From Glycomyces albidus (lineage in GTDB: Bacteria; Actinomycetota; Actinomycetes; Mycobacteriales; Micromonosporaceae): DNA of 64,000 nt. This document shows positions 13,475-62,771 of this stretch, piece by piece (within the stretch, counting starts at the first letter, position 1; every line of letters begins with the position of its first letter). The translations under genes and the position numbers were made by a program. The stretch lies in NCBI RefSeq assembly GCF_009451885.1, contig NZ_WIAO01000006.1:124001-188000 (forward strand), given 5' to 3'. The notes below the pieces were generated by a model, which was not told the DNA's origin, searched no databases, and worked only from the letters and a program-made list of their open reading frames with translations.

Positions 13475-13648
13475 AAAAATCAGACGAACAAGTAAACCTG
13501 GCGAATCCGCGTTACCGTCGAGACCTACGACAGTGAAGAATGATCGTAGGCGTTGGTCGACGGTGGAGGAACCACAGCTCGGCCGCGTCCCGTCACATCC
13601 GGTCCCTATCCGGAGGTGGCGGGACGCGGCTTACGTGAGGATGAGGGC

Positions 13649-45775: not shown

Positions 45776-46969
45776 TTACTCGGGGGCGGTGCGGATGTGG
45801 AGGAGGTCGGCGGCGGTCTTCACGGCGCGTTCGAGGGCGTCCGTGTCGGGGGCGGTGAGGAGGACTGCGGCGACGCGGTCGCGAGAGGACCGGGTCGGGT
45901 GGACGCGGTCGCCGGGGGCCACGTCGATTTCGAGGTCGGCGACCTCGGGGAGGCGGCGGGTGGCCGGGACGCCTTCGATGCGGGTGACGACGCCGGGCTC
46001 CGCGGCGGGGAAGCGGATCGCGGCCGCGCCGGAGCGGGTCCGGCGGATCCCGGGGTCCTCGCCGAGGGCGACCTTGATCGCGGCGGCGAACAGGTCGGTG
46101 CCGTGCGCGAGGGCGTGGAGTTCGAAGATGCGGTCGCCGGGGGTGCGGACCGCCACTTCCATGAGGTGCGGGCCGGAGTCCTCGAGGCGGAATTCGAGGT
46201 GCATGAGGCCGTCGCGCATGCCCATCGCCCCGGCGACGGCGGCCGCGAGCGCGCGCGCCGGGCCGGGGTCGGGGAGCCCTGCGGGGACGGTGTGGCCGAG
46301 TTCGACGTAGAACGGCGGCTCGGTGGTGGTCTTCCTCGTCGGCTCCGCCCACACGAGGCGGCCGCCCTGGACGACGCATTCGAGGCTGTACTCGGGCCCT
46401 TCGAGGTACTGCTCGACGAGGAAGGGGGCGCCGGCGTTCGCGGCGTGCCAGTCGCGCAGTCCGGTCTCGTCGGCGACGAGGCGGACGCCGCGGCTGCCGG
46501 TGCCGTCGGCGGGTTTGGCGATGACCGGGTACCGGGAGGCCGCCCACATCGCGGCGGTGTCCAGGTCGGACGGTGCCAGCGCGGCGGGCTGGGCGATGCC
46601 GTGGCGGGCGAACAGGCTCCGCTGGAGGGCCTTGTCCTGCGAGACGGCCGCGGCGCGCAGGCCCGGCCCGGGCAGGCCGAGCTCGTCGGCGATGAGGGCC
46701 GCCGCGGTGACGTGCGGTTCGCCGAACGCGACCACGCCGTGGACCTCGCCCGCCGCGAGCACCTCTGGGAGTGCCGAGTACCATGCGGCCGTAGAGGTTC
46801 CGAGCACCGGACGGCCCGCCTGGTCGTCGTCGAGGAACCCGCGGGCCCTGGCGAACTTCAGCGACGCCGGGTGGTCGAGCACCGCGAGGTCGACGCCGAG
46901 TTCGCGGGCGGCCTTCGCGTACGGCCGGCCGACCCGGCCCATGCCGATGAGCAGCACGCGCCGCCTCAT
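45776..46969 (-). CDS. ATP-grasp ligase (amino-acid ligase-like), leftward
   Basis: 397 residues. A Rossmann-like N-terminal domain starts RRRVLLIGMGRVGRPYAKAA. The ATP-grasp fold contains YPVIAKPADGTGSRGVRLV (ATP Lys and Gly-rich loop), FLVEQYLEGPEYSLECVV, and the metal-binding block HLEFRLEDSGPHLMEVAVR. Such enzymes activate a carboxylate as acyl phosphate and join it to an amine. AAGGAAG 8 bases upstream sets ATG 46969. It diverges from a second ATP-grasp gene that leads an NRPS operon, so it probably tailors or caps the same peptide. Substrates cannot be read from sequence. Confidence 0.85.
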   Translation of the reverse strand: MRRRVLLIGMGRVGRPYAKAARELGVDLAVLDHPASLKFARARGFLDDDQAGRPVLGTSTAAWYSALPEVLAAGEVHGVVAFGEPHVTAAALIADELGLPGPGLRAAAVSQDKALQRSLFARHGIAQPAALAPSDLDTAAMWAASRYPVIAKPADGTGSRGVRLVADETGLRDWHAANAGAPFLVEQYLEGPEYSLECVVQGGRLVWAEPTRKTTTEPPFYVELGHTVPAGLPDPGPARALAAAVAGAMGMRDGLMHLEFRLEDSGPHLMEVAVRTPGDRIFELHALAHGTDLFAAAIKVALGEDPGIRRTRSGAAAIRFPAAEPGVVTRIEGVPATRRLPEVADLEIDVAPGDRVHPTRSSRDRVAAVLLTAPDTDALERAVKTAADLLHIRTAPE

Positions 46970-47516
46970 CGGGAGCACTTCCTTTGCGGCGCTTGCGATT
47001 CGCGCATCGGTCCGGTCTCCTCTCGTCGAGCCGTCGGAGCGAAGCTACCGCATTTCCCGGGCCGGCGTAACGCCGCGACAAGGCGGGGCAGTTCCGGATA
47101 TCGCACGATATATTCAGAAATAGAATGACGGATATTTCACTTATTTTGGACTTATACCGTCGAATATTTCTTTGCACTCAATTGCCACTCTGCATTATTC
47201 GCGCAATTCAGATCGCTGTTCGTTGCAATGCCGATTCGGTTGCCTCGCCACTCCGACTTTTTCAAGATCATTCTCAGTGATCTTGGTATATCGTTTCGTT
47301 ATAGTTTGTATATACTACTGTTATCGTCGAGTACCTAGGGTGGTTCACTGTTGCGCTACCGTTATCTCGGGACGCATCAAGATCCACTTTGCATCTACCA
47401 TCGAAGCGACACCCACCACCCACCGATTGCTCGACCCTTTGATTCGGCGTGCCGTCCGGACGACTGCGCCGCATCTCGGCCATGGGCTGAATCAATACCC
47501 CCAAGGTGTTCTCATA
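46970..47516. promoter_or_regulatory. AT-rich divergent control region of the NRPS locus
   Basis: A 547-bp spacer between the two ATP-grasp genes. From about 47090 to 47340 it is much more AT-rich than anywhere else in the window, with several TATA-like segments such as TTATAGT and TATACT near 47299-47316. A dyad ATATCG-ca-CGATAT is at 47098-47111. An upstream in-frame extension of the rightward gene has atypical codon use and Cys/Tyr-rich translation, so it is treated as non-coding. Confidence 0.65.
47098..47111. promoter_or_regulatory. Dyad ATATCG-ca-CGATAT
   Basis: A 6-bp inverted repeat with a 2-base spacer in the AT-rich control region, 129 bases before the leftward ATP-grasp start. Possible regulator site. 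Confidence 0.4.
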
Positions 47517-48770
47517 ATGAAACATCAACTCGTGGTCGTCTACGACGTCGGCGCTGCCGGACCCGTGGACATAGCCACTGCTGCGCATGGAACCTGCGAC
47601 ATCGTATTCGTGTGCGATCCTGCGAATCCGAATGCCGCACGACACCTCGACCAGATGCACCAATCCGGAACCGTGGTCGCCATTTCCGATCCGAGCCCCG
47701 CCGACATCAGCAGAGTCGTCCAGGTCATCGGAGCGGACGGGATCACCACCTTCAGCGAATTCCAACTCGAATTGACCGCCGCCGCAGCCGCGGAATGCGG
47801 ACTCCGATTCCACGATCCGTCGGTGATACGACTGCTCACCGACAAGTCGGCGCAGCGGAGTGCACTGCGCGCCGCCGGAGTCGACGCCACCCGCAATGCC
47901 GCGGTGGATTCGCTCGGCGATCTCGAATCAGCCGTCCGGGAGGTCGGACTCCCGGCCGTGCTCAAACCGAGAAAGGGTGCGGCCAGCGCCGAAACCCACC
48001 TCGTACCGACCATTGAGGACGCCGAGCGCGTGCTCCGCGACGCCGGCGGCCGCTTCGTCCTCGAAGAACTGCTCGTCGGCGACCCCGCCGCGGCCGGCCA
48101 GGGCTGGGGCGATTTCGTCTCCGTCGAGTCCGTCGTCGCCGACGGGACGGTCAAGGCCTCGTACGTGACCGGGAAGCTCCCGCTCGCGCCGCCGTTCCGC
48201 GAGACCGGGCAGTTCGCACCCTCGACCCTCGACGGCGCGGTGCGGGACCGGGTCGCGGCGTACGCCGAGGCCGCGGTCGCCGCGCTCGGAGTGCGCTGGG
48301 GCGCCGTCCACACCGAGGTGAAGCTGACGCCGCAGGGGCCGCGGATCGTCGAGGTCAACGGGCGGCTCGGCGGCTACGTCGGCGACGTCCACCTGCGGGC
48401 CGGCGGCCCCGACCTGCTGCGCGACACGATCGCGGTCGCCCTCGGCCTGCCGGTCGAGGAGCGCGCGCCGGCGTACCGGCAGGTCGCGTTCCGGCACTAC
48501 CTCGCCGCGCCGCCGTACCGGGCCCGGCTGGAGCGGCTCGACGGGATCGACGACCTGCTGCGACTGCCCGGAGTGACCCACGTGGACCTGCGGGCCGAAC
48601 CGGGCCGGGTCCTGGACTGGCGCAAGGGGACCCAGGAGTGCCTGGCCGTCGTGTACGGCACCGCCCCCGACCACCGCGCGCTCGCGCGGACGATCCGCCG
48701 GATCGCCGCGACGGTGCGGCCCCGGTACGCGTCCGCGCAGCGACAGCCGAGTGAGGAGATCCGATCATGA
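47517..48770 (+). CDS. ATP-grasp ligase, first gene of the NRPS operon
   Basis: 417 residues from ATG 47517 (AAGGTG 9 bases upstream). The ATP-grasp domain contains LPAVLKPRKGAASAETHLV, RFVLEELLVGD, GDFVSVESVV and the Mg-binding block HTEVKLTPQGPRIVEVNGRLGG. The N-terminal about 110 residues are a carbamoyl-phosphate-synthase-like pre-ATP-grasp domain (TTFSEFQLELTAAAAAECGL). Its TGA overlaps the NRPS start (ATGA), so ligase and NRPS are made together. It may add an amino acid or acyl group to the NRPS product, or make a dipeptide precursor. It differs clearly from the leftward ATP-grasp enzyme, so the two should do different steps. Confidence 0.88.
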   Translation: MKHQLVVVYDVGAAGPVDIATAAHGTCDIVFVCDPANPNAARHLDQMHQSGTVVAISDPSPADISRVVQVIGADGITTFSEFQLELTAAAAAECGLRFHDPSVIRLLTDKSAQRSALRAAGVDATRNAAVDSLGDLESAVREVGLPAVLKPRKGAASAETHLVPTIEDAERVLRDAGGRFVLEELLVGDPAAAGQGWGDFVSVESVVADGTVKASYVTGKLPLAPPFRETGQFAPSTLDGAVRDRVAAYAEAAVAALGVRWGAVHTEVKLTPQGPRIVEVNGRLGGYVGDVHLRAGGPDLLRDTIAVALGLPVEERAPAYRQVAFRHYLAAPPYRARLERLDGIDDLLRLPGVTHVDLRAEPGRVLDWRKGTQECLAVVYGTAPDHRALARTIRRIAATVRPRYASAQRQPSEEIRS

Positions 48771-51700
48771 ACGCCGACTTCGACATGGACCACCTGGACC
48801 GGGCGCTGGCCCTCCACGGCGAATGCGGTCCGGACGGCTGCGCGCCGGTCCGCGAGACCGCCGGCCTGCGGCTGCGGGCGGACGACCCCGAATCGCTCCT
48901 GGTTTCGGCGGTGCTGCTGCTCGGCGCCAGGTACAGCGGCAGCGACTCCTATGCCGTCGCGGTGGCCGGAGCCGACGGCTCCCTGCGGGCGGTCGGCGTC
49001 GACGCCGCACCCGCGGCCGCGATCGGCGACTGCGTCCCGCGGGACGCGGCGGTCGACCCCGCGACGTGCGCGCTCGCCGTCGACCTGCTCGGCAAGGCCG
49101 ACGAGCCCGGCCGGCACGGCCTCGTGTTCGGTTGCAGCGCGAGCGAATCGGAACTGACGCTGACCGCGGTCGGGCACTCGCACGGGGACGACCCGGGCTG
49201 GACCGCCCGCGTGCTCGGGCACCTCGGCGAAGTGGTCCGGGCGCTGGTCGAGGCGCCGCGGACCCCGGTCGGGCGGCTCGAGATCCTCACCGGGCCCGAG
49301 CGTGAGGCGGTCTTCGGGCGGTTCAACCCGCCGCCGACGGACTACCCGCGCGGCGCGAACCTGATCGAGCTGTTCAAGACGCAGGTCGCGGCGGGCCCCG
49401 ACCGGCCCGCGGTGCTGCGCGACGGCGAGGAGCTGACCTACCGGGACCTGGACGAGCGCTCGGACGCGCTGGCGCGCACGCTGATGCGCCGCGGCGTGCG
49501 GCCCGGGGACCGGGTGGCGCTGCTGGCGGACAAGTCGCCGCACATGGTCGTCGCGACCGTGGCGATCCTCAAGTGCGGGGCGGCGTACGTCCCCGTGGAC
49601 CCCGCCTATCCGGCGGAGCGGCGCGCGTTCCTGCTGTCGGACTGCGCGATCTCGGTCCTGGTGGCGGCGGGCGTCGACGTCCCCGAGACGCCGGGCGTCG
49701 CCGTGGTCGACGCGGCCGGGCCGCACGAGGCCGGCCCGGTGCCGGTCCCGGCCACCGGGCCCGCCGACACCGCGTACGTCATCTACACCTCCGGCTCCAC
49801 CGGAAACCCGAAGGGCGTGGTGGTCCCCCACCGCGGAGTGGTGCGCCTGGCGACCTCCTGCGACTACCTGGACCTGTCGCCGCGGACGCGGCTGCTCCAG
49901 ACCTGCGCGATCGTCTTCGACGTCACCACGATGGAGCTGTGGGGGCCGCTGCTCAACGGCGGGTCGATCACGCTGGTGCCGGACGAGACGCTCCTCGACG
50001 CCGCGGCGCTCGGCGAGCAGATCGCGCGGCACCGGATCACGACCATGTGGCTGACGGCGCCGCTGCTGCACCTCCTGGTCGACCAGGATCCGGCGATCTT
50101 CGCCCCGCTGCGGCAGGTCATCGCCGGAGGCGACGTGCTCTCGGGGCCGCACATCGCGGCGCTCATGGCCGCCTGCCCGGACCTGGAGGTGATCAACGGG
50201 TACGGCCCCACCGAGAACACGACGTTCTCGACCGCGCACCGGATCGCGGCGGCCCCCGAGGGCCGGGTCCCGATCGGGCGGCCGATCCCGAACTCGACCG
50301 CGTACGTCCTCGACGCCGCGATGCGGCCGCAGCCGGTCGGCCTGCCCGGCGAGCTGTACACCGGCGGCGACGGCGTCGCCGACGGGTACCGGAACCGGCC
50401 CGACCTGACCGCGCGCGCGTTCGGCGACGACCCGTTCGCGCCCGGCGGCCGGCTCTACCGGACCGGCGACCTGGTGCGGTGGCTCCCCGACGGGACGATC
50501 GACTTCCTCGGCAGGGTCGACAACCAGGTGAAGATCCGCGGCTACCGGATCGAGCCGGGCGAGATCGAGCAGCACCTCAACGCGCTCGACGGCGTGCTCC
50601 AGTCGGCGGTGCTGGTGCGGACCCGCCGGGGCGAGAAGTACCTGCGCGCGCACTACACCAGCGACCGGGGCCTGTCCCCGGACCGCATCCGCGAGGAACT
50701 GGCCCGGACGCTCCCGGAGTACATGGTCCCGGCCGTGTTCATGGAGCTCGACGCCATGCCGCTCAACCGGAGCGGGAAGATCGACCGGGCCGCGCTCGCC
50801 CGCCTGGAGACCCCGGACGGAAGCGCCGCGCCCGAGGACGGCGCGGCCGGCGGCGAAGCGGCGGGAGACGCCGTGGAGTGGGCGGTCGCCGCGATGTGGA
50901 GCGACGCCCTCGGCACGGCCGTCGGCCTGGACGACGACCTGTTCGGACTCGGCGTCTCGTCGCTGACCTCCGCGGTCGTGTCCGGCCGGATCCAGCGCGA
51001 GCTCGGCGTGCGCCTCCCGGCGGCGCGACTCCTCTCCCACCCGACCGCCCGCCGCATCGCGGCCCTGGTGCGCGGCGCCGGCTCGGGCGCTCTGCCGCCG
51101 GTGGCCCCGGCGCCGGACCGCGCGGTATACCCCGTCTCGGCCCAGCAGCGGCGCATCATCGTCGAGCAGGCCAAGGACGAGACCGCGACCCACTACAACC
51201 TGCCGGTGCAGATCCGGCTCCCCGAGCCGGTCGACCACGGGCGGCTGGAGACGGCGCTCCAGGCCCTCACCGCCCGGCACGAGGCGCTGCGGACCGGGTT
51301 CGTGCAGATGGGCAACGAAACGTACCAGCGGATCCACGAGGAGGCCGCGGTCGCCGTGGCGGTCCTCGACGACCCGGAGTCGTGGCGGCCGCGGCCGTTC
51401 GACCTGGCCTCGCCGCCGCTGCTGCGCGCGTTCCGCTCGGCCGACGGACGACTCGTGGTCCTCGACTTCCACCACGCCGCCGTCGACGGCCGGTCCCTGG
51501 AGCTGCTCCTGGACGACCTGGACCGGCTCTACCGCGGCGAGGCGCTCCCGGACCTGCCGCTGCGCTACCGCGACTACGCCGTGTGGCAGCAGGGCGAGGG
51601 CGGCGCGGCCGTGCGCGAGCAGCAGGAGGCGTTCTGGCTGCGGGCCTTCGCCGACCGGCCCGAGCCGCTCGAACTGCCGACCGACCGGCCCCGCGGCCCG

Positions 51701-52396
51701 GTCCGCGAGTACGACGGCGCCCGGCTCGCCTTCGAACTCGGCACCGCCCGCACCGCGGGCCTGGCCGCCCTCGCGAGGCGGGAGGGGGCGACCCTCTTCC
51801 ACGCGCTCGCGGCCGCGTACTTCGTGTTCCTGCACCGCATCACGGGCCAGACGGACCTGACGGCGGGCCTGCCGGTGGACGGGCGCGGCGTCGGCGACGT
51901 CGACGAGGTGGCCGGGATGTTCGCGAACACGCTGTGCCTGCGGGCCCGCATCCGCCCGGGCCAGGCGTTCACGGCGCTCCTGCGGGAGGTCCGCGACGAC
52001 GTGATCGCGGCCTTCACCAACGCGGACTACCAGTTCGACGAGTTGGTCGCCAAGGCCGGCGGCGAACGCGACTTCAGCCGCAACCCGCTGTTCGACACGA
52101 TGCTGGCCTACAGCGAGGCCGCGGGCGCGGGGCGGCCGTGCCTGGGCGGGCTCGCCCGCCAGGACGACTCCGCCAGCGCCGCCAGCATGTTCGACCTCAA
52201 CCTCCAGTTCGCCGGGACCGGGAACCTGACGGCGACCTGGGCGTACAACTCGCGGCTGTTCCACGAGCGGACGGCGAAGTCCTTCGTGGACGCCTTCCTG
52301 GAGGCGGTGGACGCGGTCCTCGCCGCGCCCGAGGCGCCGCCGCTCCCCGCGCCCGACGCGACCGCGGCCGGCGACGGCCCCGCGTTCGACTTCTGA
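48767..52396 (+). CDS. NRPS 1: [C-lobe remnant]-A(Val-like)-PCP-C
   Basis: 1209 residues. Residues 1-165 are a shrunken second lobe of a condensation domain without HHxxxDG. The A domain (about 195-680) has A3 YTSGSTGNPKG near 340, A4 FDVTTMELW at 384 and A5 NGYGPTEN at 477. Mapping the GrsA specificity positions gives DVMWIGGTFK, two differences from the common Val code DAFWIGGTFK. The PCP attachment Ser732 is in FGLGVSSL, a variant of LGGxS. The C-terminal condensation domain (about 785-1190) keeps HHAAVDG (902-908). It probably loads Val and condenses it with the residue carried by NRPS 2. GAGGAG precedes ATG, which overlaps the ATP-grasp stop. Confidence 0.92.
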   Translation: MNADFDMDHLDRALALHGECGPDGCAPVRETAGLRLRADDPESLLVSAVLLLGARYSGSDSYAVAVAGADGSLRAVGVDAAPAAAIGDCVPRDAAVDPATCALAVDLLGKADEPGRHGLVFGCSASESELTLTAVGHSHGDDPGWTARVLGHLGEVVRALVEAPRTPVGRLEILTGPEREAVFGRFNPPPTDYPRGANLIELFKTQVAAGPDRPAVLRDGEELTYRDLDERSDALARTLMRRGVRPGDRVALLADKSPHMVVATVAILKCGAAYVPVDPAYPAERRAFLLSDCAISVLVAAGVDVPETPGVAVVDAAGPHEAGPVPVPATGPADTAYVIYTSGSTGNPKGVVVPHRGVVRLATSCDYLDLSPRTRLLQTCAIVFDVTTMELWGPLLNGGSITLVPDETLLDAAALGEQIARHRITTMWLTAPLLHLLVDQDPAIFAPLRQVIAGGDVLSGPHIAALMAACPDLEVINGYGPTENTTFSTAHRIAAAPEGRVPIGRPIPNSTAYVLDAAMRPQPVGLPGELYTGGDGVADGYRNRPDLTARAFGDDPFAPGGRLYRTGDLVRWLPDGTIDFLGRVDNQVKIRGYRIEPGEIEQHLNALDGVLQSAVLVRTRRGEKYLRAHYTSDRGLSPDRIREELARTLPEYMVPAVFMELDAMPLNRSGKIDRAALARLETPDGSAAPEDGAAGGEAAGDAVEWAVAAMWSDALGTAVGLDDDLFGLGVSSLTSAVVSGRIQRELGVRLPAARLLSHPTARRIAALVRGAGSGALPPVAPAPDRAVYPVSAQQRRIIVEQAKDETATHYNLPVQIRLPEPVDHGRLETALQALTARHEALRTGFVQMGNETYQRIHEEAAVAVAVLDDPESWRPRPFDLASPPLLRAFRSADGRLVVLDFHHAAVDGRSLELLLDDLDRLYRGEALPDLPLRYRDYAVWQQGEGGAAVREQQEAFWLRAFADRPEPLELPTDRPRGPVREYDGARLAFELGTARTAGLAALARREGATLFHALAAAYFVFLHRITGQTDLTAGLPVDGRGVGDVDEVAGMFANTLCLRARIRPGQAFTALLREVRDDVIAAFTNADYQFDELVAKAGGERDFSRNPLFDTMLAYSEAAGAGRPCLGGLARQDDSASAASMFDLNLQFAGTGNLTATWAYNSRLFHERTAKSFVDAFLEAVDAVLAAPEAPPLPAPDATAAGDGPAFDF

Positions 52397-52427
52397 CCCC
52401 CTGGCACGCACCCTGAAGGGACCCACT

Positions 52428-55400
52428 GTGAAGACACTCGGACAGTTGAAGATCGAGGCGGCCCGCCGCCCGTACGCGACCGCCTTCTGGCACAAGCAGT
52501 TCCCCGCCGGCTGGGAGAAGACCGGGTTCCGCGGCGACCGCGGTGAGGGGACCGGCCGCGGCCGGGTCGAGCTCGCGATCGGCGCGGCGACCTCTGACGC
52601 GCTCGACCGGTTCGGCCACGGCGACGCGACCGCGCTGCACTCGCTGCTGACGGCCGCGGTCGCGGCCCTGCTGCACCGGTACACGGGCGCCGGGCGGGTC
52701 GCCGTCGGGCAGCCGCTCACGCTCGACCCCGACCGGGCGGCCGAGCCGCTCGCGTCGGCCGTGCCGGTGCTGTGCGCGGTGGACGGCGGCGCGTCGCTGC
52801 GGTCGCTGACCCCGCCGATTGCGGCGGCGGTCGCGGAGGCCGAGAAGTACCACGACTACCCGTTCGAGGTCCTCGCCGACCATCTGGGCCTGGCCCGGCC
52901 GGCGGGCGCGAGCCCGTTCTTCGACGTGGGCGTGCGGCTCGAGGGCCTGCACGAGGCGTTCGCCGAGCCGCCGGCGGCGGTGTTCGACTTCGCGCGCGCC
53001 GACGCGGGGCTGCTGCTGCGGTTCGGGTACGACCGGGCCGTGTTCAGCGCGGCCGCGGCCGGGCGGCTGGCCGCGCACTTCGGGCTGCTGCTCGACGCGA
53101 TGTGCGCCGAACCGGAACTCGCCTCGGCGGACGTCTCGCTGCTCGGCGGGGACGACCGGCGGCTGCTCGACGCAGTCAACGACACCGGCCGGGAGCTGGA
53201 CGACTCGGTGCGGTTCCACGAGATGTTCGCGCGGCGGGCCGCGGCGGCGCCGGACGCGGTCGCACTCCGGTGCGCTGGCGTCGCGCACACGTACGCCGAA
53301 CTCGACGCGGCCGCGAACCGGCTGGCGTGGACGCTGCGGGAGCGCGGCGTCGGCCGCGAGTCGGTCGTCGCGGTGATGGCGGACCGATCGTTCGCGATGA
53401 TGGCCGCGATCCTGGCGGTGCTCAAGGCCGGCGGTGCGTACCTGCCGGTCGACCCGGCGCACCCGGCAGCGCGGATCGAGTACGTGCTGCGCGATTCGCG
53501 GGCGGCGCTGGTGTGCGCGCAGCGCGCCCACGCCGGGAAGGTCCCGGCGGGGGTCGACGCGGTCGACCTCGACGATTCGGCGTCGTTCGACGCCCGGAGC
53601 GAGGCGCCGCCGGCGGTCGGGGACGCCGCCGATCTGATGTACGTGATCTACACGTCCGGATCGACGGGGAACCCGAAGGGCGCGGCGGTCGAGCACCGGG
53701 CGGCGCTCAACCGGATCGCGTGGATGCAGCACGCCTACCCGATCGGGGCGGGCGACGCGATCCTTCAGAAGACCCCGATCGCGTTCGACGTGTCGGTGTG
53801 GGAGCTGTTCTGGTGGATGCGCGAGGGCGCGTCGCTGTCGCTGCTGGGGCCCGGGGACGCCGGGAACCCGGAGGCGATCATCGCCGCGGTCGAGTCGACC
53901 GGGGTGACGACGATGCACTTCGTGCCGTCGATGCTCGCGGTGTTCCTCGAGTACGTGGCGTCCGCGGGCGCGGCGGGGCGGCTCGCGGGGCTGCGGCAGG
54001 TCTTCGCCAGCGGCGAGGCCCTGAGCGCGAGCCTGGTCCGGGAGTTCCACCGGCTGCTGGCCCCGAACGGGACCCGGCTGGTCAACCTCTACGGCCCCAC
54101 CGAAGCCACAGTGGACGTCTCGCACTTCCCGTGCGACGACCCCGATCCGGAGGCCGTGCCGATCGGGCGGCCGATCGAGAACCTGCGGCTGTACGTGGTG
54201 GACGAGCGGCTGCGGCCGCTCCCGCCCGGGATCCCCGGCGAGCTGTGCATCGCGGGCACCGGCCTGGCCCGCGGCTACCTGCACCGTCCGGAGCTGACCG
54301 CCGAGAAGTTCGTCGAGGCGCCGTTCCCCGGGGAGGACCGGGTGTACCGGACCGGGGACCTCGCGCAGTGGCTGCCCGACGGGAACGTCGAGTACCTGGG
54401 GCGCATCGACCACCAGGTGAAGATCCGCGGCTACCGGATCGAACTCGGCGAGATCGAGGCGGCCCTCGCCGACCACCCCCTGGTCCGGGAGGCGGCGGTG
54501 GTCGTGCGGACCGCCGGCGACGGGCAGGTGCTCCACGGGTACGTCACCGGCGGTGCCGCCGAAGCGGACCTGGCGGCGTACCTGCGCGAGCGGCTGCCCG
54601 AGTACATGGTGCCGTCGCGGATCGCCGTCATCGACGCGATGCCGCTGTCCCCCAACGGGAAGCTCGACCGGAAGGCGCTGCCGGAGATCCGGCGCGCCGG
54701 CGCCCGGCGGGACGCCGCCGCCCCGCGCGAGGGCACCGAGCGGGTGCTGGCCGGGATCTGGTGCGAGGCGCTCGGGATCGAGCGGGTCGGGACGGGCGAC
54801 AACTTCTTCTCGGTGGGCGGCGACTCGATCCACTTCGTGGTGGTCCTCGCGAAGGCCCGCCGGGCCGGGCTGAACTTCACGTTCCAGGAGTTCTTCGCGC
54901 ACCCCACGATCGGCGAGCTCGCGGCGTACCTCGACGCGCGGTCCGAGGAGGCCGCGGTCCCCGAGTCGCTCGAGTTCGCGCCGTTCGCGCTCGTGGCCGA
55001 GGAGGACCGGGACCGGCTCCCCGAGGACGCCGAGGACGCCTACCCGCTGTCGATGCTCCAGGCCGGCCTCATCTTCCAGAGCGAGATGATCCGCGGCACC
55101 GCCGAGTACCACGACATCATCACCTACCTCATCCAGGCGCCGTTCGACCGCGAGCGGTTCGAGCAGGCCGTCGCCCTCGCCGTGGAGCGCAACCCGATGC
55201 TGCGCACCACCTACCACCTGGACGGCTTCCGCGACTACCTCCAGGTGGTGCACCGGACCGCGCCCGCGCCGCTCGTGGTCGTCGACCAGCGCGGCATGGA
55301 CACGGCCGCGCAGCAAACGTGGTTCGAGGAGTGGTCCGCGGCCGAGAAGGCCCGAGAGTTCGACTGGTCGCGGCCGGGGAGCCTCCTCACGCTGCACGTC

Positions 55401-57674
55401 CAGATCCTCGGGCCGGAGCTGTACCGCTACAACATCAGCCTCCACAACTCCTGTGTGGACGGATGGAGCATCAACCGGGTGCACGCCGAGGTCTTCGACA
55501 TCTACCACCGGCTCCGCTCCGGCCAGGAGGTCGAGCCGGCGACGGGCGCGAACCACCAGCGCGACTACGTGGGCCTCGAACTGCGGTCGCTGGCCTCGGC
55601 CGAGGACCGGGAGTTCTGGGCCGGCCGGCTGCGGGAGCACCCGTTCACCGAGATCCCCGCGCTCGCGCCGCCCGGCACCCCGAACGAGGTGGTGCTCAGC
55701 CACTTCGACATCCCCCTGGAGCTGTCCGACGCGATCCAGGCGCTCGCCGACGAGCTCGCCGTCCCCGTCAAGAACGTGCTCATGGCCGCGCACCTGCGGG
55801 TCATGGCCGTCATCAGCGGCGACGACGACGCGGCCACCGGGTACGAGCACTCGGGCCGCCCGGAGGCCGAGGGGGCCGAGCGGGCGATCGGGATGTTCCT
55901 CAACACCATCCCGTTCCGGGTCGACCAGGGCCCCGGCTCGTGGGCCGACCTCGTCCGGGCCGTGTACCGGGCCGAGACCGACCTGCTCCCCCACCGGCGC
56001 TACCCGATGGCGAAGATGAAGCAGGACTTGGGGACCCAGCGGACCCTCTTCGAGTCCACGTTCAACTTCACCCACTTCTACCTGCTCAAGGACCTGAAGC
56101 GGCTGCCCGAGTTCGACCTGCTGAACGTGCTGGTGCAGGCCGAGACCGAGTTCCCGCTGCGCTGCGAGGTCTCGCGGCACTTCTTCCACGACAACGTGCG
56201 GCTGAGCCTGCACTACCACGCGGACCGGATCAGCGAGGAGCAGATCAGGCGCATCGGCGGCTACTACGTGCGCGCCCTCGAACTGATGACCGGGGACCCG
56301 GGCGGCGAGTACACGGCCCTGTCGCTTCTTGACGGCGCCGAGCTGGCGCTCGTCGAGGACCGGTTCCCGCGCGCGGCCGCCGGCCGGTTCGCGCCGGGCG
56401 CGGCCGTCCGGGTGGTCGACGCGCACGGCATGCCGTCCCCGGTCGGGACCCCGGGCCGGATCGTCGTCCTCGACGGTCCCGTCCCGGACGGCACGTCCGA
56501 CGGGGCCGCCGACGGCGGCAGCGCCTCCCACGAGCGCGCCTTCACCGGCCGCGCCTTCACCGACACCGGCGAGCGCGGGCGATGGACGCCCGCAGGGGAA
56601 CTCGAAGTCCTCGAGGCGCCCGCCGAGGCGCCCGCCGCGGCCCCGGAGGCGTTCGCGCCGCCGGCCGGCGAGGCGGAGGAGCGCGTCGCCGCCGCCTGGG
56701 AGAAGGTCCTCGGCATCCCCGCCGAGGAGATCGGCCGCAGCGACGACTTCTTCGACCTCGGCGGCAACTCGCTCACCGCGATGCGCGTGACCATGGGCCT
56801 CGACGGGGCCGTGAGCCTCATCGACGTCATGGAGCACCCGCGGCTGCTCGACCTCGCCGCGATCCTCGGCAGCCGGTCCGCCGAGGAGGGCGTGCTGCGG
56901 CCGCTCACGGCCGCGGCGGGCCCGCCGTCGGCGACGCTCGTGTGCTTCCCGTACGCCGCCGGCCACCCGTCGAACTTCCTCGACCTGGCCAAGGCGGTCG
57001 CCGCGGCGGCGCCCGACATCGCGGTGCACGCCGTCGAGTTCCCCGGCCACGACCCGCGGTTCCCCGGCGAGCCGCTCACCACCATCGCCGAGACCGGCCG
57101 GCTCGTCGCCGACGACATCGCCGCGCGCATCGACGGCCCGGTCATCCTGTGGGGCCACTGCTTCGGCGCCGCCGCAGCCGTGGAGACCTGCCGTCTGCTC
57201 GAGGAGCGCGGCACCGACGTGCGCCGCCTCTACCTGGGCGCCAAGCTCCTCAACGACGCCGACTACCTGCGGGAGGCCATCGAGGTCGCCGAGGGCCTCA
57301 CCGACGACGAGATCATCGCCTGGCTCATCGACCGCACCGGCTTCACCGAGGCCGACGGGCTCGAACCCGACCAGCGCGACTTCATCTGCCGCATGTTCAA
57401 GCACGACAGCGCCTCCGGGCACCGGTACTTCATCGACGCCCGGGAGCGGCCCGAACCGGTGCGCCTGCGCACCCCGGTCACCTTCGTGGGCACCGGCGAC
57501 GACCGCCTCGTCGCCGGCTACCGCGAAGCCCACCGCGACTGGACCCAGATCGCGGCCGACGTCTCCCTCCGCGAACTCGACGCGGGCGGCCACTACTTCG
57601 CACGCACCAGGGCCCGCGACGTCGCCGCGTTCGTCGCCGCGGACCACCGATCGACCGACACGCCCAGAAGGTAG
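52428..57674 (+). CDS. NRPS 2: [C-lobe remnant]-A(Ser)-PCP-C*-[A remnant]-PCP-TE
   Basis: 1748 residues from GTG 52428. Residues 1-240 are the second lobe of a C domain without HHxxxDG. The A domain (about 255-760; A4 FDVSVWELF at 453, A5 NLYGPTEA at 553, Lys745) reads DVWHFSLVDK, the classic Ser code. PCP-1 carries Ser800 in GGDS. The next C domain (about 870-1290) has HNSCVDG (1006-1012): Asn1007 replaces the catalytic His. About 1298-1410 only the end of an A domain remains (VGTPGRIVV, RGRWTPAGELEVLE). PCP-2 has Ser1448 in GGNS. The TE (about 1495-1740) has GHCFG with Cys1578 instead of Ser, Asp1691 or 1692, and His1722. It probably releases a short Ser-containing peptide. Confidence 0.92.
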   Translation: MKTLGQLKIEAARRPYATAFWHKQFPAGWEKTGFRGDRGEGTGRGRVELAIGAATSDALDRFGHGDATALHSLLTAAVAALLHRYTGAGRVAVGQPLTLDPDRAAEPLASAVPVLCAVDGGASLRSLTPPIAAAVAEAEKYHDYPFEVLADHLGLARPAGASPFFDVGVRLEGLHEAFAEPPAAVFDFARADAGLLLRFGYDRAVFSAAAAGRLAAHFGLLLDAMCAEPELASADVSLLGGDDRRLLDAVNDTGRELDDSVRFHEMFARRAAAAPDAVALRCAGVAHTYAELDAAANRLAWTLRERGVGRESVVAVMADRSFAMMAAILAVLKAGGAYLPVDPAHPAARIEYVLRDSRAALVCAQRAHAGKVPAGVDAVDLDDSASFDARSEAPPAVGDAADLMYVIYTSGSTGNPKGAAVEHRAALNRIAWMQHAYPIGAGDAILQKTPIAFDVSVWELFWWMREGASLSLLGPGDAGNPEAIIAAVESTGVTTMHFVPSMLAVFLEYVASAGAAGRLAGLRQVFASGEALSASLVREFHRLLAPNGTRLVNLYGPTEATVDVSHFPCDDPDPEAVPIGRPIENLRLYVVDERLRPLPPGIPGELCIAGTGLARGYLHRPELTAEKFVEAPFPGEDRVYRTGDLAQWLPDGNVEYLGRIDHQVKIRGYRIELGEIEAALADHPLVREAAVVVRTAGDGQVLHGYVTGGAAEADLAAYLRERLPEYMVPSRIAVIDAMPLSPNGKLDRKALPEIRRAGARRDAAAPREGTERVLAGIWCEALGIERVGTGDNFFSVGGDSIHFVVVLAKARRAGLNFTFQEFFAHPTIGELAAYLDARSEEAAVPESLEFAPFALVAEEDRDRLPEDAEDAYPLSMLQAGLIFQSEMIRGTAEYHDIITYLIQAPFDRERFEQAVALAVERNPMLRTTYHLDGFRDYLQVVHRTAPAPLVVVDQRGMDTAAQQTWFEEWSAAEKAREFDWSRPGSLLTLHVQILGPELYRYNISLHNSCVDGWSINRVHAEVFDIYHRLRSGQEVEPATGANHQRDYVGLELRSLASAEDREFWAGRLREHPFTEIPALAPPGTPNEVVLSHFDIPLELSDAIQALADELAVPVKNVLMAAHLRVMAVISGDDDAATGYEHSGRPEAEGAERAIGMFLNTIPFRVDQGPGSWADLVRAVYRAETDLLPHRRYPMAKMKQDLGTQRTLFESTFNFTHFYLLKDLKRLPEFDLLNVLVQAETEFPLRCEVSRHFFHDNVRLSLHYHADRISEEQIRRIGGYYVRALELMTGDPGGEYTALSLLDGAELALVEDRFPRAAAGRFAPGAAVRVVDAHGMPSPVGTPGRIVVLDGPVPDGTSDGAADGGSASHERAFTGRAFTDTGERGRWTPAGELEVLEAPAEAPAAAPEAFAPPAGEAEERVAAAWEKVLGIPAEEIGRSDDFFDLGGNSLTAMRVTMGLDGAVSLIDVMEHPRLLDLAAILGSRSAEEGVLRPLTAAAGPPSATLVCFPYAAGHPSNFLDLAKAVAAAAPDIAVHAVEFPGHDPRFPGEPLTTIAETGRLVADDIAARIDGPVILWGHCFGAAAAVETCRLLEERGTDVRRLYLGAKLLNDADYLREAIEVAEGLTDDEIIAWLIDRTGFTEADGLEPDQRDFICRMFKHDSASGHRYFIDARERPEPVRLRTPVTFVGTGDDRLVAGYREAHRDWTQIAADVSLRELDAGGHYFARTRARDVAAFVAADHRSTDTPRR

Positions 57675-57682
57675 GACCCCCT

Positions 57683-58951
57683 GTGAAAGAACTCATCTCC
57701 GTCCTGAAGAACCGCGACTACCGATTGCTGTGGTCCGGTTCCGTCGTCAGCCTCATCGGCGACGGCGCCACCTGGACCGCCCTGGCCTGGCTCGCCATCA
57801 CCATCGGCAACGCGGGCTCGGTCGCCGTCATGGCGGTCTGCTACACGATGCCGATCATCCTGGGCGGCACCGTGATCGGCCCGCTCATGGACCGGCTCTC
57901 GCGGCGGTTCCTGCTCGTCGCCGACTCGCTGCTGCGCGCCGTGGTGATCGGCATCGTCCCGGTCTTCGCGCTCACCGGGAACCTCGAGCTGTGGCACCTG
58001 TACGTCACGGCCGGCGTCTACGGCCTGCTCAAGATCGTGCCGCTCGCCGTCGTCCCGACGCTCGTCCCCGAGCTGGTCGAGAAGCGCGCGCTGCACTCTG
58101 CGACCGCGCTCGAGTCGATAGCGTACGGCGCGGCCGGCATGGCCGGGCCCGCGATCGGCGGCGTGCTCATCGCCGTCTTCGACGCGCCCACGGTGCTCAT
58201 CCTCGACGCCCTCACCTATCTGGTGTTCGCCGGCTGCGTCCTCGCGATCAAGGCGCCGCTGGCCGCTCCCGAGGGCAACACCAGCATGAGCCTCAAGCAG
58301 AGCTTCGGCTGGAAACCCGTGTTCGCCCTGTTCAAACGCGACGACGTCCTCGTGTGGACCACCGTCAGCTTCGCGCTGTTCAACGCCACGGTCGGCATGA
58401 TCCGGGTGGTCATACCCTGGCTGGTCGTCGAGCAGCTCCACGCCGGGGCCGGGACGCTCGGCATCGTCCTCGGCATCGCCAACAGCGGCGCGCTCATCGG
58501 CGCGTTCCTCTCCGGCGTCGTCAAACCCACCGACCGGCAGATGCTGCGCGTCGGCGTCCTCCAGCTCATCGGCGGACTCGGCCTGCTGTTCCTGTTCGGA
58601 CCGCAGGTCTGGATGATCCTGCTGGGCCTGATGATCCTCGAGTTCGTGTCCACGCCGATGACCGTCTCGGCGCAGGTGCTGCGCCTGGCGCGCATCCCCG
58701 CCGACATCCGCGGCCGCACGATGACGTTCATGCGGACGCTCCTGCAGTCGACATCGCCGGCCGGTTCGGCGCTGGCCGGGCCGATGCTGCTGGCGGGCCT
58801 GTTCGCGCCGCTGCTGGTCATCGCGGCCCTGTCGACGTCGGCCCCGGCCGCGTTCGTGGCCTGGAAGTACCGCCGCCGCTCCTTCGCCGACGAACTGGGG
58901 CTCAACGACCCCGTGCCGGAGAAGGAGGAGGCGAAGGCGGCCGCGTCCTAA
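57683..58951 (+). CDS. MFS exporter of the NRPS operon
   Basis: 422 residues with about twelve hydrophobic helices. The beginning LKNRDYRLLWSGSVVSLIGDGATW is typical of MFS drug-efflux permeases of the MFS_3/enterobactin-exporter type. The loop MDRLSRRFLLVADSLLRAV between helices 2 and 3 is the MFS motif A equivalent. The C-terminus is charged (EKEEAKAAAS). GTG 57683 is 8 bp after the NRPS stop, so it is in the same operon. It probably exports the peptide product and gives self-protection. Its stop overlaps the convergent hydrolase stop. Confidence 0.88.
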   Translation: MKELISVLKNRDYRLLWSGSVVSLIGDGATWTALAWLAITIGNAGSVAVMAVCYTMPIILGGTVIGPLMDRLSRRFLLVADSLLRAVVIGIVPVFALTGNLELWHLYVTAGVYGLLKIVPLAVVPTLVPELVEKRALHSATALESIAYGAAGMAGPAIGGVLIAVFDAPTVLILDALTYLVFAGCVLAIKAPLAAPEGNTSMSLKQSFGWKPVFALFKRDDVLVWTTVSFALFNATVGMIRVVIPWLVVEQLHAGAGTLGIVLGIANSGALIGAFLSGVVKPTDRQMLRVGVLQLIGGLGLLFLFGPQVWMILLGLMILEFVSTPMTVSAQVLRLARIPADIRGRTMTFMRTLLQSTSPAGSALAGPMLLAGLFAPLLVIAALSTSAPAAFVAWKYRRRSFADELGLNDPVPEKEEAKAAAS

Positions 58952-59460
58952 CCGAACTCGAGTTCGTCGGAGGCGCACACCGTGCCGATGGAGGGGAACA
59001 CGACCTTCTCGGCGAAGGTGTGCGCCTCCGCGCTGAACGCGGCCATCGCGTCGGTCGGGAGCACCACCTCGTAGCCGTAGTCGGCGGCCGTGCGGGCGGT
59101 CGACTCGACGCCGAACGTCGTCACCAGGCCCGCGATCACCACGGTCGCGACGCCCCGCGCGGTGAGGAGCGCATGGAGCCCGGTCTCGTGGAAGGCGCTC
59201 AGCGCGCGCTTGACGACCACCGGCTCGCCCTCGAGCGGCGCGCACGCCTCGTCGAGCCCGCTGCCGGGCGGCTGCTCGTCCACATTGGGGCGTTCGACGC
59301 GGACCCAGACCACGGACGCCCCGGCGGCGCGGGCGCGGTCGGCGAGCGCGAGGCACCGGTCCCTGACGTCGGCGCCGGTGCGCGGGGCGGTGTCCAGGGC
59401 GATGATGCGCGGCATGAGGTCGATGAGGATCAGTGCGCCGCTGCGGGAGTCGATCTGCAT
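58948..59460 (-). CDS. Isochorismatase-fold hydrolase lacking the Cys nucleophile
   Basis: 170 residues. The family blocks are ALILIDLMPRI (catalytic Asp), VVVKRALSAFHETGL (Lys) and GLVTTFGVESTARTAADYGYEV. Members such as nicotinamidase have Cys in the last block (TxxCVxxTA); here Gly occupies that place, as in true isochorismatases such as EntB. It may thus hydrolyse a vinyl ether or act by a non-Cys mechanism; no isochorismate pathway gene is nearby. It is convergent with the exporter (stops overlap) and divergent from the PPTase. Whether it belongs to the NRPS cluster is uncertain. Confidence 0.8.
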   Translation of the reverse strand: MQIDSRSGALILIDLMPRIIALDTAPRTGADVRDRCLALADRARAAGASVVWVRVERPNVDEQPPGSGLDEACAPLEGEPVVVKRALSAFHETGLHALLTARGVATVVIAGLVTTFGVESTARTAADYGYEVVLPTDAMAAFSAEAHTFAEKVVFPSIGTVCASDELEFG

Positions 59461-59709
59461 GCCCCCATCGTGCCTTAGCGCCCGTCCTGCGAAACAGAAC
59501 GGTCGTCATTCACCCGCTCGCCGGGTTGCCGGGGTTCCCAGACACCTACCGGTGCATCGAGGCCCCAGCCTCGCGAACGAACCGACTCGGATACCGCCCC
59601 GCCCTGACGCACAGGACAAGCCCTGGCGGGCTCGTGCGGGTCCCGCGGCCCGCCCCTGCGGGCGCATCGGCTCTGGACGGCCGCGCGGCGGCCCCGGTAC
59701 GGTGTCCCG

Positions 59710-60482
59710 ATGGGCGGCAAGGCGATTCCGGTGCGGTTCGGCGGCACGGCCCCGGCAGGGACGGTCCGCCCGGCGCCCGGCGCCGTCGCGGTGTTCCTGG
59801 CGGAGCGCACGACCGAGGTCGATGCGTCGGTGCTCAGCGCGGCCGAGGCGGCGCGCGCCGCTGGATTCGCCCGCGTCGAGGACCGCGAGCGGTACACGGT
59901 CGCGCACGTCATGCTGCGGCTGCTGCTCGCGTCGTACCTCGACTGCGAACCCGCGGACCTGCGGCTGTTCAACGAGACCTGCCCGGTCTGCGGCGGGCCG
60001 CACGGCCGCCCCGCGGTCGCCGGGGTGCCGCGGCTGCACTTCTCGATCTCGCACGGCGGCGCGTTCGCGTTGGCGGCGTTCGCATCCGAGCCGGTCGGCG
60101 TCGACGTGGAGCCCGTCCCGGGCGAGACGGCGGTCCACGACCTCCTCGGGTGCCTCACCGCCGGCGAGCGCCGCGAGTTCGACGCGCTCGACCCCGCCGC
60201 GCGCCCCGCGGCGTTCGCTCGGGCCTGGGTGCGGAAGGAGGCGCGGCTCAAGGCGGACGGCACCGGCCTGGCGGCCGACCCGGCCGGCGTCCACGCGGGG
60301 CTCGGCCCCGACCCGGGCCCCGGATTCCTCGATCTCGAAGTGCCGCAAGGGCATGCGGCGGCACTGGCGTTCGCGGCCCCGCAAGGCTCCGCGCTCGGGA
60401 CGGCCCGCCGGTTATCATCGGCTACCGCGGCATCGGGACGGGCGATCCGCCCGCGGCGGGAGAAGGGCTGGTGGGACCGTGA
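59710..60482 (+). CDS. Sfp-type 4'-phosphopantetheinyl transferase, 3' end frame-disturbed
   Basis: It loads CoA-derived phosphopantetheine onto carrier-protein Ser residues, here presumably Ser732, Ser800 and Ser1448 of the NRPSs. Motifs in frame from ATG 59710 are FSISHGGAFALAAF, GVDVEP (Mg ligands Asp and Glu) and WVRKEARLKADGTGLA, followed by the usual end near GSALGTARRL (about 60413). No stop occurs in that frame; it stays open to 61302 through the next gene. A shift by one frame after 60413 gives a TGA at 60480-60482 that overlaps the kinase GTG (GTGA), so a one-base indel or assembly error near the 3' end is likely. The end coordinate assumes this. The catalytic part is complete. Confidence 0.8.
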
Positions 60483-61890: not shown

Positions 61891-62123
61891 GTCTCCATTG
61901 TAGGCATTTGTCCGTCTCGGGTCCGGAAGTCGGTTGATCCGGCTTGTCCTCGAATCAACGGTTGCGTAAGTTCGCCATGTCTTGTGGGTAAAAGATCGGA
62001 TTCACCCCTTGCGGTGCCACGACATCCCATGATTCGATGACCCCGACCGATGGGGCATTCGCGCCCGTCGATCGGTGTACCCCGTCAGCCGCACTCTTCC
62101 CCCCTTCCCCCACAGGAGTCACC

Positions 62124-62771
62124 ATGCAAGCATGCAAGCGCGCCGTCGCCGCGGTCGCGGCGGCCGCGGTCGCCCTCCTCGCGGTCCTCGTCCTCGACTC
62201 GGCCCCGGCGCAGGCCGTCCGGCCGCCGGGCATCCCGTCCCTCTCCACCGCGCAGGCCGAGCTGAACGCGCTGACCGTGGCCGCCGAGTCCCACGGCTCC
62301 AGCTACGACCGGGACCTGTTCCCGCACTGGTCGAGCGTCGGCGGCGGGTGCACCGCGCGGCAGTACGTGCTCAAGCGCGACGGCCGCGACGTCGTGACCG
62401 GCTCGGACTGCCAGCCCGACTCGGGCTCGTGGCAGTCGGACTTCGACAACGTCTGGACCAGCACGGTCTCGAACGCCACGGTCGACCACGTGGTGGCGCT
62501 CTCCGAGGCGTGGGCCTCCGGCGCCTGGGCGTGGACCACCGCCGAGCGCCAGGCGTTCGCGAACGACGTCGACTCGCCCCAGCTCTGGATCGCGACCACG
62601 TCGGCGAACTCGTCCAAGAGCGACTACGACCCGGCCGAGTGGATGCCGTCGAACTCGTCGGTGCGCTGCGACTACGTCAAGGCGTGGACCCATGTGAAGT
62701 ACCTGTACGACCTGACCGTCGACGCCGCCGAGAAGTCGGCGATCCAGTCGCACCTGAACACCTACTGCTAG
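62124..62771 (+). CDS. Secreted HNH-family endonuclease (DUF1524-like)
   Basis: 215 residues. A signal peptide (RAVAAVAAAAVALLAVLVLDSAPAQA) is followed by a mature domain with VDHVVALSEAWASGAW (DHxxxL, the catalytic His core) and SANSSKSDYDPAEWMPSN (Asn and Lys of the HNH-type site). Cys pairs GGCTARQ, GSDCQPD and VRCDYV/NTYC may form disulfides. It probably degrades extracellular DNA for nutrient gain or defence. ATG 62124 has AGGAG 5 bases upstream. A terminator follows. Confidence 0.88.
   Translation: MQACKRAVAAVAAAAVALLAVLVLDSAPAQAVRPPGIPSLSTAQAELNALTVAAESHGSSYDRDLFPHWSSVGGGCTARQYVLKRDGRDVVTGSDCQPDSGSWQSDFDNVWTSTVSNATVDHVVALSEAWASGAWAWTTAERQAFANDVDSPQLWIATTSANSSKSDYDPAEWMPSNSSVRCDYVKAWTHVKYLYDLTVDAAEKSAIQSHLNTYC

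Follow-up and report, generated by a model that had tools for sequence, protein, structure and literature searches.

Among the solved thioesterases (TEs) of nonribosomal peptide synthetases (NRPSs), an Asp at position II is reported only in ObiF1 and SulM, the enzymes of obafluorin (PMC6668435) and sulfazecin, and the products of both are smaller than 370 Da (PMC11298585). Dehydrating condensation (C) domains form another described group. The albopeptide synthetase AlbB has two of them, C2 and C3, and AmbE of Pseudomonas aeruginosa provides a precedent for passing a chain from one carrier (T) domain, T1, to the next, T2 (PMC10880069). Here we describe a compact locus of Glycomyces albidus, on a 64,000-nucleotide stretch of contig NZ_WIAO01000006.1 (the window, to whose positions all coordinates of the locus refer), that follows NRPS logic but departs from it in several unusual, conserved features. 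From its gene order, its domains and their codes, the loss of a His residue and of an adenylation (A) domain, the residues and relationships of its TE, a translational coupling, and a natural gene fusion, all of which were observed, we infer chemical steps by which an ATP-grasp-extended Val-Ser peptide would be released as a Ser beta-lactone. We favor this reading tentatively and give it somewhat less than an even chance.

In the proposed pathway, Val would be loaded on T1, and the ligase ATPg2 would add a free amino acid to the N-terminus on the Val side. Ser would be loaded on T2, and C1 would join the two to give Val-Ser-S-T2. The following domain, C*, would come from dehydrating domains of the CmodAA group but have lost their catalytic base; it would spare the Ser hydroxyl and pass the chain to T3, which would receive it without an adenylation domain of its own. 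A TE with a Cys nucleophile and an Asp at position II would close a four-membered ring with the Ser beta-hydroxyl, yielding an aminoacyl-Val-Ser beta-lactone. The second ligase, ATPg1, would act either on the product or on an intermediate, and a major facilitator superfamily (MFS) protein would export the product. A reactive four-membered ring, as in some antibiotics, may be the form in which the peptide is released.

A predicted Val-Ser assembly line and its genes

The genes lie in the order ATPg1 (reverse strand), ATPg2, NRPS1, NRPS2, MFS exporter, isochorismatase-family gene (reverse strand), and phosphopantetheinyl transferase (PPTase). A first-pass annotation of the window had named all of these except the isochorismatase-family gene (58948-59460) and had placed the locus at 45776-60482; position 60482 is the end of another open reading frame (ORF; 59433-60482). 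Its description of the arrangement was borne out. Divergent ATP-grasp genes, ATPg1 (45776-46978, reverse strand) and ATPg2 (47517-48770, forward strand, as are all features below unless stated), flank an intergenic region (46979-47516), and each encodes a LAL_C2 domain over the Pfam cutoff. The ATG of NRPS1 at 48767 sits inside the ATPg2 stop codon (ATGA, 48767-48770), which couples the ligase to an NRPS split into two proteins. The MFS exporter (57683-58951) follows the NRPS, and a PPTase domain, recognized as ACPS by Pfam, lies near at 59710-60380.

NRPS1 (48767-52396) begins with a stretch that by eye resembles the end of a C domain and continues, in the Pfam assignment, with A1 (49373-50779), T1 (50882-51070), and C1 (51122-52342), an ordinary condensation domain with the motif HHAAVDG and TycC as its nearest chain in the PDB. 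NRPS2 (52428-57674) has near its N-terminus the C-terminal half of a C domain (52479-53159; profile positions 195-452, the HHxxxDG lobe being absent), followed by A2 (53226-54662), T2 (54744-54932), C* (55032-56342), the scar of a deleted third adenylation domain, A3 (56343-56678), T3 (56679-56864; motif GGNSL, with no adenylation domain in cis), and the TE (56883-57674).

We take the A1 code, DVMWIGGTFK, to be Val-like and the A2 code, DVW(H/T)FSLVDK, to be Ser-like; the residues of all A codes in the family are assigned in this way, from code signatures. These two codes support the prediction, already made in the first pass, of a short peptide with Val-like and Ser residues. Across the 56 related loci described below (numbered with the prefix L), A1 codes are Val-like in most, with DAWLLGAVI in L082, L088, L094, L102, and L114 and variants in L085 and L103, and A2 codes are Ser-like wherever readable, with a variant in L076. 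A generic A-domain query of the window genome matched nine stretches, two in the cluster (49-50% identity) and seven in four other proteins (31-38%). The seven weaker matches were considered as loaders of T3; the three of the four proteins that were examined (L160-L162, the fourth being C53) show no NRPS-type code. NRPS-type codes were thus found in just two A domains of this genome, and the cluster's Condensation domains are the only ones found there.

C*, the third module, and the thioesterase across related loci

A profile made from seven C* domains yielded 79 loci. C* sequences had first been gathered by a downstream TE or by the pattern H[NDA], and the genome scan, queried with two other peptides, kept its best 80 matches. 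We studied the 56 closest loci (L074-L129). The remaining 23 of the 79 (L130-L152) were set aside as distant, mostly longer assembly lines, and their C domains were still included in the C* tree. Partner genes were counted within 10-kilobase flanks, not whole genomes, on gene calls from a simple script rather than curated annotation. Three loci end near the NRPS (L092, L094, and L112) and L076 is degraded, so missing partner genes mean little there, and because several loci can stem from a single genome or species, the counts are not independent events. The loci come from Firmicutes, Actinobacteria, and Proteobacteria, with Clostridium, Paenibacillus, Streptomyces, and Hahella among the genera. 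Their shared core is [ATP-grasp]-A(Val)-T-C // c-A(Ser)-T-C*-T-TE; most encode A-T-C and then A-T-C-(A)-T-TE, a few are cut by contig ends, and the first A domain is absent in L108 and L113. We found no described family member with a product in the paper literature searched (MIBiG and most subscription papers lay outside the search). To that extent the first-pass remark that it knew of no described cluster with this combination of features stands, but the first pass had missed the wide distribution of the family, the type of its TE, and the kinship of C* with AmbE and McyA.

C* carries HNSCVDGW, with Asn (bases 55446-55448) where HHxxxDG has its second His. Searched against PDB chains, its profile matched McyA (393 bits) and AmbE-C2 (251 bits) ahead of PvdL (180 bits); the control, C1 of NRPS1, matched TycC first and McyA only at 1e-11. 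A midpoint-rooted tree combined 57 C* domains with 58 other C domains from the 56 loci, those of L130-L152, and three reference domains. All 57 C* domains fell, together with three further domains, into one clade with a support of 1.0 that contained none of the 58 others, and McyA joined this clade at 0.936 and AmbE at 0.915. The second His is missing from 60/60 members of the clade (Asn in 41, Asp in 12, Ala in 7), a count that rests on the tree and includes three domains gathered without the H[NDA] pattern; McyA, AmbE, and 57 of the 58 other C domains keep it (HH in 55, SH in 2, HD in 1). An AlphaFold model of C* (predicted local distance difference test [pLDDT], 88.3) has the same two nearest folds, McyA and AmbE-C2 (Z 43.9 and 42.1; next, 39.4), each with a root mean square deviation of 2.5 Å, over 442 and 414 residues. 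C* thus groups with McyA and AmbE-C2 and follows a Ser-like module (by the A2 signature as assigned above), both as expected of a CmodAA domain, but it lacks the second His of the classical HHxxxDG motif.

This kinship raises the possibility that C* still dehydrates Ser to dehydroalanine (Dha), the TE then releasing a Val-Dha product. The C* clade is sister to the McyA type (support 0.936 with midpoint rooting), McyA and AmbE-type domains are thought or have been shown to dehydrate, and C* stands after a Ser module whose T2 carries GGDSI (GG[N/D/T]SI in 52/52 loci), a motif reported for donors of E and DCL domains, including that of NocB C5; moreover, domains of this kind take part in making albopeptide from Val, Ser, and Thr (PMC10880069). 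Nevertheless, we consider Val-Dha improbable: the second His is absent from every member of the clade, the change to Ala of the corresponding residue in AmbE-C2, H1497, was among those that led to significant loss or abolishment of product (PMC10880069), and a Dha terminus would deprive a ring-closing TE of its nucleophile. In the beta-lactone reading, the Ser hydroxyl is kept for the TE.

The third module varies across the family in a way that bears on what T3 receives. Sixteen loci show an A3 code and 40 do not; among the latter, L076 and L102 could not be judged, which leaves A3 absent in 38 of 54. The distance from C* to T3, measurable in 52 loci, falls into three groups: 529 to 556 residues with an intact A3 (15 loci), 86 to 134 residues with a conserved remnant resembling A motifs (16 loci), and 42 to 63 residues with no recognizable A remnant (21 loci). 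The window belongs to the second, scar-bearing group. The "domain defects" noted in the first pass are therefore real, but they are conserved features of a family, given the His-less C* in 60/60 and the lack of A3 in 38/54. SbnB and SbnA make 2,3-diaminopropionate (Dap). SbnB-type genes accompany 9/16 loci with A3 versus 0/40 without (P = 1.5e-6), SbnA-type genes accompany 8/16 versus 0/40, and the one pair tested, in L122, passes the NCBIfam equivalog cutoffs; since these genes co-occur with A3, the intact A3 probably takes Dap. A separate A-T protein with a Thr code is found at 33/40 loci without A3 versus 1/16 with it. In L074 and L075 its place is taken by an A-T whose code is Asx-like (Asp or Asn), and a TauD-family oxygenase gene lies divergent from the cluster. 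The latter was Pfam-tested in L026, which is the L075 locus, is 65% identical in L074, and was found in the flanks of none of the other 56-set loci. The loci left without an A domain for the third residue are the degraded L076, those at contig ends (L092, L094, and L112), and the Glycomyces sibling L077, so that Glycomyces (the window and L077) is the only uncut, undegraded case. We predict from these codes and partner genes that the readable third residues carry a beta-nucleophile (Dap and Thr) or would do so after hydroxylation (Asx-type with TauD). For Glycomyces, where no more than two A domains with such codes were found, Ser is the sole predicted residue of this kind.

The same scarcity of A domains is compatible with another route, modeled on the AmbB/AmbE system, in which A1 would load Val in trans on T3, C* would condense, and the TE would release by hydrolysis a tripeptide, Val-Ser-Val, serving to protect a modified residue at its center. 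The architecture is the same, A-T-C // (N-terminal domain)-A-T-C-T-TE, AmbB has been shown to load Ala in trans onto T2 of AmbE (PMC4357302), and the genome yielded no NRPS-type code beyond those of A1 and A2. We judge this route unlikely, if a little less so than the release of Val-Dha. C* lacks the second His, whose change to Ala or Val abolished condensation in AmbB, EntF, TycB1, and SrfA-A (PMC8968710); a tripeptide is no longer supported by later work on AmbB/AmbE itself (PMC10880069, PMC8968710); and a modifying oxygenase was not found among the cluster genes scanned.

The TE carries a Cys nucleophile (GHCFG; Cys codon, 57159-57161), an Asp at position II, and a His and is of the ObiF1/SulM type. 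Among PDB chains its nearest matches in sequence are SulM (1.8e-25) and ObiF1 (8e-25), and its model (pLDDT 93.6) is closest to ObiF1 (Z 32.5; 2.0 Å over 245 residues) and SulM (Z 31.5; 2.2 Å over 246), with type II TEs next (Z 26.6). Of 52 family TEs long enough to include the nucleophile, that of the window among them, 49 have Cys there (the TE of L085 is cut off), and in an alignment with SulM and ObiF1 the Asp and His are present in 52/52. Release by plain hydrolysis or as a diketopiperazine, with the ATP-grasp ligases merely capping a free peptide, would suit a small product, and type II TEs with Asp at position II are proofreading enzymes (PMC11298585). We regard it as improbable given the prevalence of Cys, the ring-forming activity of the nearest solved TEs, and the tie between ATPg2 and NRPS1.

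Several points weigh against release as a beta-lactone. We know of no direct precedent for a hand-over from T2 to T3 by a C domain without its second His, and T3 may instead be loaded in trans with some further residue. Position 278 of the A2 code depends on the alignment, being T in alignments of the window and H for its sibling. A short-chain dehydrogenase/reductase gene, present at 26 of the 40 loci without an A3 code, has a role that the model leaves unexplained. Three related TEs (L121, L122, and L126) have a Ser nucleophile, and hydrolysis is possible because hydrolytic type II TEs share the Asp at position II. Finally, the window TE has His-Cys-Phe where a Gln-Cys-Asn motif is described as specific to SulM (PMC11298585).

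A broader proposal would make the window and the 56 loci an undescribed class of strained-ring short peptides, in which the dehydrating C domain is disarmed, A3 is deleted or replaced in trans, the last residue is beta-nucleophilic (Dap, Thr, probably beta-hydroxy-Asx, or Ser), a Cys TE forms a beta-lactone or beta-lactam, and an ATP-grasp ligase, in place of a C domain, supplies the N-terminal residue. In this full form we consider it possible but doubtful.

ATP-grasp ligases and the limits of the cluster

ATPg2 has 417 amino acids from the ATG at 47517, where the sequence places its start rather than at the TTG of a longer ORF. In Pfam, ATPg1 has LAL_C2 and ATP-grasp_4 over the cutoff, and ATPg2 has LAL_C2 over and ATP-grasp_4 just under it; the nearest PDB chains are the ligase BL00235 for ATPg1 and BacD for ATPg2. 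The metal-binding motif E-x-N-x-R reads EVNGR in ATPg2 and EVAVR in ATPg1, where Ala stands for the usual Asn, which makes the activity of ATPg1 less sure. ATPg2-type genes occur at 19 related loci and lie directly upstream of NRPS1 at 17 of them (from an 11-base overlap to a 29-base gap), with the same 4-base overlap as in the window in seven (L074, L075, L077, L089, L093, L097, and L098); in L110 the gene is 556 bases from NRPS1 as called. L101, from a metagenome-assembled actinomycete genome, contains a natural ATP-grasp::A(Val)-T-C fusion (L101 2928-7451), a single protein of 1,507 residues that matches ATPg2 at 43% over 408 amino acids and then NRPS1 at 40% over 1,038. This fusion and the conserved translational coupling support the first-pass suggestion that the ligases may extend or cap the peptide. 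As a separate observation, L117 (16584-18776) and L125 (16743-19013), loci with an intact Dap-type A3, encode ATP-grasp domains behind some 340 to 420 residues of another domain.

In a tree of ATP-grasp proteins, ATPg2 falls with genes from other phyla that immediately precede NRPS1 and with members of a compact two-gene A(Val)-T-reductase operon found in genomes of the same family. A Val-like code stands beside an ATPg2-clade gene in 10 of the 20 loci fetched (L027, L028, L029, L031, L032, L033, L035, L037, L038, and L041; reductase Pfam-tested in L029). No C domain was found in the A(Val)-T-reductase protein (Pfam-tested in L029), and for this reason the ligase may make its peptide bond; the operon is probably a dipeptide aldehyde maker. 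Genes that by eye resemble those for sensor kinases and response regulators follow the operon in L027, L029, and L032.

At least two ATP-grasp genes are present at 9/56 related loci. Because T3 lacks an A domain and the genome has no spare NRPS-type code, ATPg1 might load T3 with a free acid in place of the missing domain, and the Glycomyces loci, alone among uncut and undegraded ones in having no A domain for the third residue, do carry ATPg1. Loading of a carrier protein by an ATP-grasp enzyme is known from BtrJ in butirosin biosynthesis. We think this role very unlikely for ATPg1, as L-amino acid ligases (LAL type) normally join to amines, the Ala in its E-x-N-x-R motif makes its activity uncertain, and in L079-L081 a second ATP-grasp resembling ATPg1 is found next to a Thr A-T gene.

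Comparison within Glycomyces helps to set the limits of the cluster. The sibling genome G151 (Glycomyces amatae) retains the full set of seven genes, with 75-94% identity, far more than chance would preserve, and among 22 Glycomyces genomes only G151 has a close copy of ATPg1 (84%), the next long matches being at most 41%. In a third genome, G154, the PPTase and isochorismatase-family genes are present, and a fragment of the MFS gene (residues 11-286, 85%) adjoins a 61-residue remnant of ATPg1 (61% identical), forming a deletion scar at L178 6479-10438. This direct junction indicates that everything between ATPg1 and the beginning of the MFS gene has probably been lost as a block, and the genes kept at the scar suggest that ATPg1 and the MFS gene are the limits of the cluster and that the isochorismatase-family and PPTase genes are neighbors. 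Other NRPS-type matches lie elsewhere in the G154 genome.

The two neighboring genes were accordingly down-weighted as cluster enzymes. The isochorismatase-family hydrolase, probably a boundary gene, has homologs of 48-70% identity in eight Glycomyces genomes without an intact cluster and, among the 56 related loci, is present only at the sibling L077; the PPTase gene is kept at the G154 scar. A siderophore logic of the enterobactin kind, which an isochorismatase neighbor could imply, was likewise rejected: other aryl-acid genes were absent in the Pfam scans, and the TE groups elsewhere. The PPTase frame of the window has no stop until 61302 and runs under the next gene, and its relative in G151 ends at 223 amino acids; a frameshift or sequence error near 60380-60480 is possible. 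Elsewhere in the window, a protein with a GmrSD_C nuclease domain is encoded at 62037-62771, and two adjoining genes at 12275-15457 by eye resemble those for DivIVA coiled-coil proteins, with a strong AT skew there (0.28-0.34). Among the related loci, a P450-like gene directly follows NRPS2 in those from Kitasatospora phosalacinea and S. xanthophaeus (L079-L081, about 12690-13934; tested in L080), and a nitrilase/amidase-family gene occurs at 13 loci (tested in L104, 12588-13427).

Comparison with described systems

If the proposal holds, the loci would represent an unnamed, widely spread NRPS family whose peptides carry a beta-lactone or beta-lactam; beta-lactones are described as uncommon among natural compounds and in many cases potent (PMC5490192). 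They would also form a graded set of natural enzymes with a dehydrating C domain that has lost its base and a neighboring A domain deleted stepwise, on which the functions of the second His and of trans loading could be tested directly. The ATP-grasp::A-T-C fusion would extend NRPS logic by a first peptide bond made without a C domain.

The closest likeness in architecture is to AmbB and AmbE, with A-T-C followed by A-T-C-T-TE, a last T domain without an A domain, a C domain of the CmodAA or dehydrating group, a transporter in the cluster, and a very small product (predicted in our case). The window differs in its Val and Ser codes, compared with their Ala and Glu, in a C* without the second His, and in its Cys TE and ATP-grasp ligases; nor was a Pfam match to the methyltransferase domain of AmbE or to the two alpha-ketoglutarate oxygenases of that system found in NRPS2 or the neighboring genes scanned. 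ObiF1 and SulM resemble the window TE in their Cys nucleophile and Asp at position II, in sequence and predicted structure, and in small products, but their upstream modules differ, the window TE reads His-Cys-Phe instead of the Gln-Cys-Asn of SulM, and a sulfotransferase was not found among the cluster genes scanned. AlbA and AlbB of albopeptide share the residues Val, Ser, and Thr (the last on a separate A-T in most relatives of the window) and a CmodAA-group C domain after the Ser module; in contrast, the window has one His-less C*, a deleted A3, a Cys TE, and ATP-grasp ligases. Azaserine, which also involves Ser, an NRPS, an ATP-grasp, and an MFS protein, was rejected as a match, its NRPS being Cy-A-CP beside triacsin-like genes (PMC10445470). 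BacD and BL00235 share with ATPg2 and ATPg1 an ATP-grasp domain with LAL_C2, but the ligase of the window is coupled to an NRPS, and in L101 fused to one, so its acceptor may be carrier bound. Syringomycin synthetase SyrE ends in C-T-TE without an A domain and is served by a separate Thr A-T, SyrB1, as in most relatives of the window; the window itself lacks the separate A-T.

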